Origin: Halobacteriales archaeon
GTDB taxonomy: Archaea > Halobacteriota > Halobacteria > Halobacteriales > SKSH01
Length of the DNA stretch: 46,495 nt
Direction of reading: 5' to 3'
Assembly: GCA_007118145.1 (NCBI GenBank)
Contig: SKSD01000008.1
Coordinates: forward strand, 1 to 46,495
Below the pieces are notes generated by a model. That model was not told the origin of the DNA. It did not search any database and saw nothing but the letters and a program-made list of their open reading frames with translations. The position numbers and the translations under genes are program-made. Shown piece by piece: positions 3,384 to 7,583 of the stretch; position 1 is the stretch's first letter, and every line of letters begins with the position of its first letter.

Positions 3384-4217
3384 GTGTCGGTTACTGTCAC
3401 GATTGCAGAGTGCTCATTCACCATCGACATCCGGAAGGTCGATGAGCTCTGTCTCCATGAGGAGGTGATCGATGAGCACGTCGATACCCTGATCGAGGCA
3501 CTCCGACGTGAGGGCACACTTCGCGATCCAGTCATCGTCGATGCCGGATCTGATATCGTGCTCGATGGGATGCATCGTGTGACTGCAGCTGATGCACTGG
3601 GACTCGGGTATATCCCTGCCTGTGAGGTTCGCTACACCGATCCGGATATCAAGGTCGAGGGATGGGCAAAGGTGTTCGACCAGTTATCACCGGTTGCGTT
3701 CGAGCGTGCGGCCACCAGCGTAGGGATCTCCCTCGCACCAACATCCACAAAGGCGCACACCTCGAGGGCCATCCCACCTCCGATCGCGGTAATCGACGGT
3801 ACCTATTGCGAGCTCGAATTCGATGACACCGACATCGCCTCCGTATGCACGGCGATGAGACGCCTCTTCGATGAGCTCGAAGCGCACGGTTTCACACCAC
3901 GTCTCGAGCCCGATTCGTACCTCAACGGAGCCTTCGATGGTGAGGAGGTGGTGGTGGCGATCCCGCAGATCCCAAAATCAACCATCGTCGAGGTCGGGTC
4001 GATGGAGTTCTTGTTCCCACCGAACACGACCCGTCATGTCCTTCCTGTGCGACCGATCGGTCTCGATATCCCGATCGAACGTCTCTCCGATGACCCAGCT
4101 GTGATCGAGAGATGGGTGAGACATCGCCTAGATACAAGTGCTATCGAGTTCGTCCCCCCAGGGAGCCACTATGGTGGACGACGCTACGATGAGGCACTGG
4201 CTTTGATCCGTGACTAG
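3384..4217 (+). CDS. ParB/SerK-like nuclease-fold protein
   Basis: The N-terminal part (about residues 15-90) is a ParB/sulfiredoxin-like fold with the motif VLDGMHRVTAA, in which DGMHR occupies 61-65; the DG(H/M)HR box is the nucleotide-handling motif of ParB and of archaeal ADP-dependent serine kinase (SerK, a free-serine kinase first described in Thermococcus). The remaining 180 residues, including a stretch resembling an alpha/beta domain (VEVGSMEFLFPP near 216-227), are typical of archaeal SerK-like proteins rather than chromosome-partition ParB: there is no helix-turn-helix. Start GTG 3384 is the first in frame. A role in serine or cysteine metabolism is inferred; plain ParB-like DNA binding is the alternative. 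It has no operon partner. Confidence 0.6.
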   Translation: MSVTVTIAECSFTIDIRKVDELCLHEEVIDEHVDTLIEALRREGTLRDPVIVDAGSDIVLDGMHRVTAADALGLGYIPACEVRYTDPDIKVEGWAKVFDQLSPVAFERAATSVGISLAPTSTKAHTSRAIPPPIAVIDGTYCELEFDDTDIASVCTAMRRLFDELEAHGFTPRLEPDSYLNGAFDGEEVVVAIPQIPKSTIVEVGSMEFLFPPNTTRHVLPVRPIGLDIPIERLSDDPAVIERWVRHRLDTSAIEFVPPGSHYGGRRYDEALALIRD

Positions 4218-4329: not shown

Positions 4330-4338
4330 GGAGGGAGG
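4330..4338 (+). promoter_or_regulatory. Strong Shine-Dalgarno before a TTG start
   Basis: GGAGGGAGG lies 8 bases before the TTG at 4347. It matches the anti-SD end of archaeal 16S rRNA and decides the TTG start of the haloperoxidase-like gene, since no ATG or GTG sits at a better distance. Confidence 0.6.
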
Positions 4339-4346
4339 ATACCTCT

Positions 4347-5702
4347 TTGCCAGAAGATCACACATCCCGATCGGTCGCTCGAGAATCGAGCCGACCTCAC
4401 ACACGCCGTGCCTTCTTGCTAGCAGCGGGCACGTCGCTGGCGGCGAGTGCTGGATGTACGTGGATCACTGGTGGGTCGATACCAGACGATGAGACTGGAG
4501 CTGGTCCGATTGTCGACTGGAACGACGCCATGCTCAACGTCGTCAGGACCGTCCCCCAGACACCGATAGCATTCACCCGCCAGTTCGCCCTGTTCAACGT
4601 CGCCATCTATGATGCGGTCACCACGATCATGGCTGCCAGGGGAGGGGTCGCCTACGAACCGTATCGCTCGCCAACAGAGGCACCAGCTGGTGATCTCTCG
4701 TGTCCCGCAGCAGTCGGTGGTGCAGCACACGAGGTGCTCACGCATCTGCATCCAGAATTCACCACCCTCTTCGATACAAGACTCGCGGATACCTTGGATA
4801 TCGCCCGCTCGTTGGAGGGTGATGTCAGCCGTGGGGAGGAGTGGGGCCGTCGCGTCGCGAGCGGACTCATCGACGAGCGCCTCGATGATGGACACCTCGC
4901 GTACGACGGTGGTTCGTATCAGGCGTGTGACCGACCCGCGATGACACCGGGGTGTTATCGTGGTGGGCAGGGTGGGCCGTGGCTCGATGCACACTTCGCC
5001 TTCGTCGATACCTGGGCGATAACGAACCCGATGCCATTCGGTCGACCACCGTGGCTCACTGATGATGCGTATGCCGAGGCATGGCACGAGGTATACCACC
5101 TTGGCGACAACCGCCGAGACCGTCCACAAGAGGAGATTGATATCGCCACCTTCTGGCGTGGTGGCGGTGGGACATCACGACCCCCCGGACGCTGGATGGG
5201 CATCACATCGATCGCAGCCACCGAGTTTCACCTCTCGTTGCTCGAGACTGCACGATTGTTCGGTCTTGTGAGCCTCGCAATCGCCGATGCTGGTATCTCC
5301 TCGTGGTTATCGAAGTACAAGCACGGGTTCTGGCGCCCACTCCCAGCGATCAGATATGGTGACACTGATGACAACCCTGAGACGTTTGCCGACCCAGGCT
5401 GGCAACCGATCGCCATCGGAGGTAGCCCAGAGTATCCTTCTACGCTATCTTGTTATGGCGCTACCGCGAAGACCATCCTCATCGACTATCTTGAGACTGA
5501 CTCGTTCACATTCGAGTTCACTTCGAGCGGTCCGCCTGAACAGACCAGAACGTTCAACAGCTTCTCTGGCGCGTTTGAGGAGTCCTGGCACAGTCGACTC
5601 TATGTCGGCAATCATTTCAGGTTCTCGCTGGTCGACTCCATCCCCGTCGGTGAGGCGATAGCACAGACGGTCCTGGATGATCAGCTACAACCGATCGAGT
5701 GA
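4347..5702 (+). CDS. Tat-exported vanadium-haloperoxidase-family (PAP2-like) protein with altered active site
   Basis: The 451-residue precursor begins with a twin-arginine signal (HTRRAFLLAAG, RR at about 20-21) followed by a SAGC lipobox-like site, so it is probably exported folded and lipid-anchored. The C-terminal half shows the vanadate/phosphate pocket of the haloperoxidase/PAP2 superfamily: K323 and R330 (KYKHGFWRP), PSTLS at 364-368, and SR417LYVGNH423, where R417 and H423 have the same 6-residue spacing as Arg490 and His496 of Curvularia chloroperoxidase. The usual acid-base His of the Ser-Gly/Ala-His segment is Leu367 here (CTA). Vanadate binding through H423 may survive; halide oxidation or phosphatase activity is uncertain. 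A CRTAC1-type exported protein follows 105 bases downstream on the same strand. Confidence 0.8.
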   Translation: MPEDHTSRSVARESSRPHTRRAFLLAAGTSLAASAGCTWITGGSIPDDETGAGPIVDWNDAMLNVVRTVPQTPIAFTRQFALFNVAIYDAVTTIMAARGGVAYEPYRSPTEAPAGDLSCPAAVGGAAHEVLTHLHPEFTTLFDTRLADTLDIARSLEGDVSRGEEWGRRVASGLIDERLDDGHLAYDGGSYQACDRPAMTPGCYRGGQGGPWLDAHFAFVDTWAITNPMPFGRPPWLTDDAYAEAWHEVYHLGDNRRDRPQEEIDIATFWRGGGGTSRPPGRWMGITSIAATEFHLSLLETARLFGLVSLAIADAGISSWLSKYKHGFWRPLPAIRYGDTDDNPETFADPGWQPIAIGGSPEYPSTLSCYGATAKTILIDYLETDSFTFEFTSSGPPEQTRTFNSFSGAFEESWHSRLYVGNHFRFSLVDSIPVGEAIAQTVLDDQLQPIE

Positions 5703-5807: not shown

Positions 5808-7583
5808 ATGGATAAGCAGGTAGTAGTCACGATCGTGGGCTTGGCGTGCGTTATCGGAGTGACGCTCGTCGTCGTCACGGGTGTACCTGTATCGATCGAT
5901 ATGTTCGCTGGTGGTTCGCCGGGTGAGTCTGATACGGACGGGCCGATCGGGTCGACCACGTACGATCCACCGGACCCTGCGACCCTGCCCGGTACGTTAG
6001 ACGCACAACCTGCAGACTTCGCACCGTTTCGTGCCGTGACCGAATCGATCGGGATAGATTATGAGACTCGACGCTTCAGTCGTGCGTTCGTCGGACATTA
6101 CGGTGTATATGTCGCGGATATCAACAACAACGGCTACGAGGATTTGCTCTTGATCGGCGGTGACTATCCCACCTTGTATGTGAACACGATGGATGGGTTC
6201 GAAGCCGACCGTGTCTTCGACCAACCTGATGCGACGGTTGCACATTTTTTCGATTACAACAACAACGGACACCGTGATCTCCTCCTTGGTCTCAGAGGTG
6301 CGCCGCCGGTACTCTATGAGAATCACGATGGGGAGTTCGTCGAGCGGGCTGACGCGTTCGATCGCACACTCGATTACCCGACCACGATGACCTCGGCCGA
6401 TTTCACCGGGAATGGATGTCTCGACATCTACATCGGTCAGTGGGGTTCACCAACTGGGTCACCAGCTGTCGCTATCGGTGAGATGCGCGATATCGCAGCT
6501 GCCCATCCCGAACATCGCCCGACCACGTCGAACGGTAACCCGAACCACCTCTTCGCTGGTGACTGTGCATCGTTCACCGAGATCACCGACCAGGCGGGCA
6601 TCGGCGGCGAACAGTTCACACTCGCCGTCTCCGCAGCAGATTTCACCGGCAACGGTCACATCGACCTTCATGTCGGTAACGACTGGACAGGTGATTACAT
6701 CCACGAGAACCTCGGGAATGCCACGTTCGAGACGATCGACCTCGGTCCGGCCTCCGACCGGAACGCCATGTCGAGCGTCGTGCAGGATATGACTGGGAAT
6801 CACCTGCCCGATATCTTCGTCACGAACGTCTACTTCGAGAACGCTGAGATCGATGATCTCATCCCACTCACCCGCACACCACTCCCGGATGGGAATAACC
6901 TGTTCGCCAACCAGGGTGACGGCTCATTCGTCGATATCGCGAAGGAACACGATCTTCACCGTGGATCGTGGGGCTGGGCGGCGACGATCGCCGATTACAC
7001 GAACGATGGCCACCTCGACGTGATACACTCCTCGACGTACGTCAACGTCCTGCCTGTCCATGACCATGCAGATATCTTTGAACCACCGCAGGTCTGGAAG
7101 GGCACAGGCGATACCTGGGAGAAGGTACATGGGTTCGACCTCGGCTTTGATGCTCACAACATCCGCGGTATCGCACGGATCGATTACCGTAACAACGGCG
7201 TTCTCGATGTGGTCATGGTCGGCAATCCAGCGCAGATGCCTGGCGTATCCAACGATGACAGGCAGGTGCACGTGTATGAGAACACGCTCGTTTCCAACGA
7301 GTCACTCCAGCTCTTCGTCAGGAATCCGACCGGGCTTGAGCAACATAGCAAGGTCTACGTCGAGACTGATCAGCGCACCATCTTCCGATTGGTCAATGCT
7401 CGAAGTGATTTGCTCTCACAGGATTCGAGACTGATCCATATCGGGACGGCAAACGAGCAGGTCGAACGCGTCGTGGTGGTCTGGCCCGATGGCTCAGCGA
7501 CCGAATACGAATCGCTGGTGGAGGGATCTCGATACATCTTGACCCCAGCGGGGGCTGAGGAAATCGAACGACCCGAGGCGTGA
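5808..7583 (+). CDS. CRTAC1-type exported protein: FG-GAP/VCBS propeller plus ASPIC/UnbV domain
   Basis: The 591-residue protein starts with a hydrophobic segment (about 4-30) that acts as signal or membrane anchor. Seven DxxxxGxxD-type loops follow, for example DINNNGYED (from D104), DYNNNGHRD, DFTGNGCLD, DFTGNGHID, DYTNDGHLD and DYRNNGVLD. These are Ca2+-binding FG-GAP/VCBS repeats that build a beta-propeller like that of integrin alpha chains and CRTAC1. The last 85 residues form an ASPIC/UnbV domain with the characteristic VVVWPDGSATEYE. Such proteins are extracellular binding or scaffold proteins with no proven reaction. GGTGAGG at 5799-5805 gives a ribosome site. Its position behind the haloperoxidase-like gene suggests a functional pair outside the cell (inference). 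Confidence 0.85.
   Translation: MDKQVVVTIVGLACVIGVTLVVVTGVPVSIDMFAGGSPGESDTDGPIGSTTYDPPDPATLPGTLDAQPADFAPFRAVTESIGIDYETRRFSRAFVGHYGVYVADINNNGYEDLLLIGGDYPTLYVNTMDGFEADRVFDQPDATVAHFFDYNNNGHRDLLLGLRGAPPVLYENHDGEFVERADAFDRTLDYPTTMTSADFTGNGCLDIYIGQWGSPTGSPAVAIGEMRDIAAAHPEHRPTTSNGNPNHLFAGDCASFTEITDQAGIGGEQFTLAVSAADFTGNGHIDLHVGNDWTGDYIHENLGNATFETIDLGPASDRNAMSSVVQDMTGNHLPDIFVTNVYFENAEIDDLIPLTRTPLPDGNNLFANQGDGSFVDIAKEHDLHRGSWGWAATIADYTNDGHLDVIHSSTYVNVLPVHDHADIFEPPQVWKGTGDTWEKVHGFDLGFDAHNIRGIARIDYRNNGVLDVVMVGNPAQMPGVSNDDRQVHVYENTLVSNESLQLFVRNPTGLEQHSKVYVETDQRTIFRLVNARSDLLSQDSRLIHIGTANEQVERVVVVWPDGSATEYESLVEGSRYILTPAGAEEIERPEA

Follow-up and report, generated by a model that had tools for sequence, protein, structure and literature searches.

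A haloarchaeal clade of vanadium-haloperoxidase-like proteins with leucine at the position of the distal histidine

Vanadium haloperoxidases (VHPOs) bind vanadate on an axial histidine, convert it to peroxovanadate and oxidise halides with it; His404 of the Curvularia enzyme takes part in the hydrogen bonding of the vanadate (PMC10278073). The window, a stretch of 46,495 nucleotides from a Halobacteriales archaeon, encodes a protein of this kind with leucine in the His404 column. The source assembly is a draft of 88 contigs with a completeness of 78.7%. The reading frame and its signals are the following.

4347-5702, + strand: VHPO-like protein whose His404 column holds Leu (open reading frame; match to 4cit at E=1.3e-14; AF2 model and fold match)
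4330-4339, + strand: Shine-Dalgarno-like GGAGGGAGGA, read from the sequence, 7 nt upstream of the TTG
4401-4457, + strand: twin-arginine signal (T19-R20-R21-AFL) to lipobox Cys37 (SAGC37), from motif reading and homologue alignment

The protein consists of 451 amino acid residues, counted from the TTG start as residue 1. The Shine-Dalgarno-like element and an alignment with homologues across almost the whole length indicate that the reading frame is real. The earlier note had described the product as exported, and the twin-arginine motif and lipobox are common to the homologues: all 9 carry the RR pair and 8 of the 9 the lipobox Cys. These signals support its prediction as a Tat-lipoprotein of the cell surface.

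The nearest solved protein by sequence is the iodoperoxidase of Zobellia galactanivorans (4CIT; E=1.3e-14 with the single protein, E=4.8e-54 with a profile). The profile also matches vanadium chloroperoxidase (VCPO), NapH3 and NapH1, and weakly the algal bromoperoxidases. An AF2 model built from 30 sequences (mean pLDDT 83, pTM 0.85) has its best fold match in the same iodoperoxidase (4USZ; TM 0.74/0.80), followed by structures of NapH3 and of VCPO, including the H404A mutant. The VCPO second-domain model is matched by 4 of the 9 Leu-clade members, and the Pfam PAP2 score of the window protein lies below the cut-off (14.5 vs 27.2 bits). Membership in the VHPO family, as first proposed in the earlier note, is upheld by the predicted helical-bundle fold and by the retained Lys, two Arg and axial His; the distal Ser-Gly-His is absent. 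The Zobellia enzyme has the same four residues but keeps Ser-Gly-His, carries Phe in place of Ser360 and is 22% identical in the structural alignment. The Curvularia inaequalis chloroperoxidase has the same spacing (K-x6-R and R-x5-H), whereas the wild-type fungal enzyme possesses His404, is 609 residues long and shares 18-19% identity; its H404A mutant (1VNG) mimics the loss of the distal His in the window protein and is nevertheless able to bind vanadate. Class A acid phosphatases and PAP2 proteins have oxyanion-site motifs in common with it, but they are about half its size, retain PSGH and match its fold weakly (TM about 0.3 by query length). The residues that define the site are encoded as follows.

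5313-5315, + strand: codon of Lys323 (Curvularia K353), invariant
5334-5336, + strand: codon of Arg330 (Curvularia R360), invariant in the Leu clade
5439-5447, + strand: codons of Ser365-Thr366-Leu367, which replace Ser-Gly-His (S402-G403-H404) in the alignment; Leu367 is CTA
5514-5516, + strand: codon of Glu390, an acid invariant in the clade alignment and specific to the clade, candidate substitute acid-base
5595-5597, + strand: codon of Arg417 (Curvularia R490), invariant
5613-5615, + strand: codon of His423 (Curvularia H496), axial vanadate ligand, invariant and the sole invariant His of the Leu clade

These correspondences come from an alignment with solved VHPOs, with the Curvularia residues named as in PMC10278073. 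They agree with the proposal that K323, R330, R417 and H423 match the vanadate pocket and that S365-T366-L367 occupies the Ser-Gly/Ala-His segment, with Leu367 falling on the His404 column. Of the motif KX6RP - PSGH - SRX5H of PAP2 proteins and class A acid phosphatases, the first and third parts are present and the second reads PSTL. The four ligand residues are invariant in the nine intact Leu copies; S365 is kept in eight and is Ala in the ninth (L049). Of the roughly 400 aligned columns of the clade, only about 60 never vary, which argues that the conservation of the complete K, R, R, H set is not due to chance. Among copies that are 39-50% identical to the window protein, a useless site would be expected to have drifted, and the invariance of these residues therefore points to a site that is still useful.

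A different His taking over in the pocket, which the earlier note had named as a finding that would overturn its reading, was rejected: apart from H423 no His is invariant in the Leu clade, and hence no conserved His substitutes for His404. The protein could still be a fully active haloperoxidase if E390, Y250 or another clade-specific residue provided the acid-base function. Besides L367, the residues W246, Y250, E390, R425 and D430 never vary within the Leu clade and are seldom found in His-type proteins, which fits a rebuilt pocket. However, the Zobellia iodoperoxidase resembles the window protein in this respect as well, having Tyr in the column of Y250 and an acid, Asp, in that of E390, yet it keeps its own distal His, and we regard full activity by substitution as quite improbable.

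Leucine at this position is a property of the whole group. A search of genome contigs with the single protein gave no relatives; an alignment as query then gave 41 loci. The Leu gene is represented by nine intact haloarchaeal copies, one stop-containing copy and one fragment (in genome G088), from ten genomes of seven genera, and Leu is found in all of them. It is rare, being present in 10 of 392 sampled genomes of the order (two weak matches to His-type proteins left aside). A broader scan of 84,980 species, one genome per species, gave Natrarchaeobius, Natrialba swarupiae and a Salinarchaeum MAG as named hosts, together with bacterial relatives; no relatives were found in the viral contigs searched. 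An error of sequencing or assembly, or the decay of just one gene, might be suspected from the draft state of the assembly and from two other copies that are damaged (L013, L055). Error is ruled out by the Leu of all intact homologues in seven genera; moreover, the CTA codon is two base changes away from any His codon and omega lies well below 1, so that this explanation, decay included, can practically be dismissed.

Among the bacterial homologues, the His404 column holds His in 42 of 43 and Gln in one. The latter (SGQ), from an uncultured bacterium (L064, 8001-9164), is an independent replacement. In a tree from a quick search, for which column 367 had been masked, the Leu proteins group as a single clade (SH-aLRT 100) beside a mostly actinobacterial His clade, which corresponds to a single His-to-Leu change; the distal His would accordingly have been lost once, in a haloarchaeal ancestor. 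The bacterial His-type relatives of this sister clade (Actinoplanes, Lentzea, Nonomuraea and others; 34-36% identity) have the same ligand residues and differ in the His at the His404 column. Between close intact Leu copies omega is 0.18-0.26, and the clade is under purifying selection. The two damaged copies indicate that the gene is dispensable in places. One of them (L013; G064:C6:91410-92615, - strand) is the second copy of its genome, is 95% identical to the first and has a TGA stop exactly at the Arg417 codon.

The halide-rich hypersaline habitat, to which the earlier note had attached relevance, does not explain the Leu, since other haloarchaeal VHPO-like proteins, several of them with a twin-arginine motif, retain Pro-Ser-Gly-His; salt adaptation was rejected as the cause. 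At this motif, TSGHS or PSGHA is found in other VHPO-like proteins of archaea. As a further finding that would overturn its reading, the same note had named a subgroup that always carries Leu and has a known activity. The first part holds; for the second, the literature searched, which omits most subscription journals, yielded no published activity for the Leu subgroup and nothing relevant on haloperoxidases in combination with haloarchaea, ASPIC or FG-GAP. That the trait defines a clade, and that a partner gene is conserved with it, go beyond the earlier note.

The function of His404 in VCPO has reportedly been studied by mutagenesis, and the H404A mutant is said to have largely lost chloride oxidation and to have kept some bromide oxidation. 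A natural clade with Leu fixed at this position and the other vanadate ligands kept represents a natural experiment on the purpose of that His. The H404A mutant has been crystallised with vanadate (PMC8407142); from its properties the Leu clade is expected to be a binder of vanadate or phosphate. If it is catalytic, its substrate should be one more easily oxidised than chloride. By analogy with the mutant, we infer that the Leu protein would be unable to oxidise chloride efficiently.

The pocket might instead belong to an enzyme that does not halogenate and, like NapH3 or a phosphatase, catalyses a vanadium-independent rearrangement or phosphoryl transfer. In class A acid phosphatases the His of PSGH likewise serves as general acid, so its loss would harm a role of this kind too. 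NapH3 (8CXL) is among the best fold matches of the window protein, apo-VCPO is known with a phosphate intermediate trapped in it (3bb0), and NapH3 and MarH2 are described as close homologues of VHPOs that are not halogenases (PMC12871659). However, NapH3 is a biosynthetic-cluster enzyme with a fold identity of just 16% to the window protein, and no biosynthetic genes were recognised beside the Leu gene. Such an enzyme appears rather unlikely.

A further indication of function comes from the adjoining gene.

5808-7583, + strand: CRTAC1-like partner with FG-GAP repeats (PF13517, E=4e-29), UnbV_ASPIC (PF07593, E=3e-7) and an N-terminal hydrophobic segment

Both Pfam matches lie above the cut-off, and this is the only UnbV_ASPIC match in the source assembly. 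A CRTAC1-like gene adjoins the Leu gene in six of the ten genomes, the pair being missing in four. In five of the six adjacent cases it shares the strand of the Leu gene and directly precedes it, the two overlapping by 4 bp in L048 and being 3-4 nt apart in L052 and L054; in the window the order is reversed and the CRTAC1-like gene follows after 105 nt. Such a gene occurs in 8/10 Leu genomes vs 40/382 others (Fisher p=1e-6, relatedness not corrected for), and none was detected in the retrieved flanks of bacterial His-type relatives. Where a genome lacks the Leu gene, the neighbour of the CRTAC1-like gene encodes a Tat-exported DUF7405 protein (PF24152), identified by Pfam, in 13 of 13 sampled loci (L140-L152, e.g. 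L150:4410-7539). DUF7405 is common in the order (348/392 genomes) and was not found in the incomplete assembly of the window. Its relation to Dyp peroxidases is likely but remote: Dyp_perox_C is matched by 4 of the 13 proteins (best 1.5e-6), the Dyp family model by one (1e-4), and a Dyp structure at E=0.099. By our own reading, the place of the Asp in the GxxDG of Dyp proteins is taken in DUF7405 by an invariant Ser (GFKS), with an invariant His kept; the distal Asp typical of Dyp proteins thus seems to be missing from this family.

That the CRTAC1-like gene has a VHPO-like neighbour in some genomes and a Dyp-like one in others speaks for a peroxidase-type role. Our leading interpretation, held tentatively, is that the Leu protein is a surface Tat-lipoprotein that has kept its oxyanion site and acts as a peroxidase-type enzyme with the CRTAC1-like partner. 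With the Lys, Arg, Ser, Arg and axial His retained, the site probably binds vanadate (or phosphate). Peroxovanadate would then form on the axial His and oxidise a substrate easier than chloride, such as bromide, iodide, or an organic or sulphur compound, and the protein would act together with the beta-propeller partner at the surface. Vanadate occupancy, peroxidase chemistry and cooperation with the partner are what we infer from the VHPO fold and profile match, the ligand invariance, the single clade, the omega values, the gene pairing, the DUF7405 link and the H404A crystal. Against this interpretation count the importance of the distal His for catalysis in known members, with no conserved His in its place, and furthermore the Ala in L049, the damaged copies, the four genomes without the pair, the weak DUF7405-Dyp link and the apparent lack of the Dyp distal Asp in DUF7405.

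Several of these points would also suit a pseudoenzyme in which phosphate or vanadate is bound structurally only and the protein serves at the surface as a scaffold for the CRTAC1-like propeller or as its binding partner. The distal His is gone without a conserved replacement, the conserved partner belongs to the repeat-propeller class, and this reading retains some weight because the VHPO-like protein and its alternative, DUF7405, both seem to be without the classical distal acid-base residue. Nonetheless, the four charged oxyanion residues are invariant over a large divergence and pure scaffolding would not need them; we consider a pseudoenzyme possible but somewhat unlikely. More speculative still, and rather doubtful, is a haloarchaeal surface oxidation module in which the CRTAC1-like propeller combines with interchangeable peroxidase-fold partners (the His404-less VHPO or Dyp-like DUF7405), each lacking the classical distal acid-base residue and sharing an undescribed chemistry. 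The pairing of the CRTAC1-like gene with the Leu gene, and with DUF7405 as its neighbour in other haloarchaea, offers a clue to what two uncharacterised families may do.

Some side observations concern these genes and related ones. In genome G014 (L047, 2964-6776), phage-tail-sheath and Pvc16-like genes adjoin the Leu gene, which suggests a contractile injection-like cluster in a haloarchaeon. Just upstream in the window (3384-4217, + strand) lies a gene whose N-terminal region is related to SerK/SbnI, a ParB-type serine kinase, at scores far below the family cut-offs. On a Rhizobium phaseoli plasmid (L015, 2638-13152), a His-type VHPO domain lies inside a giant protein of at least 3,500 residues annotated as Ig-like domain-containing.
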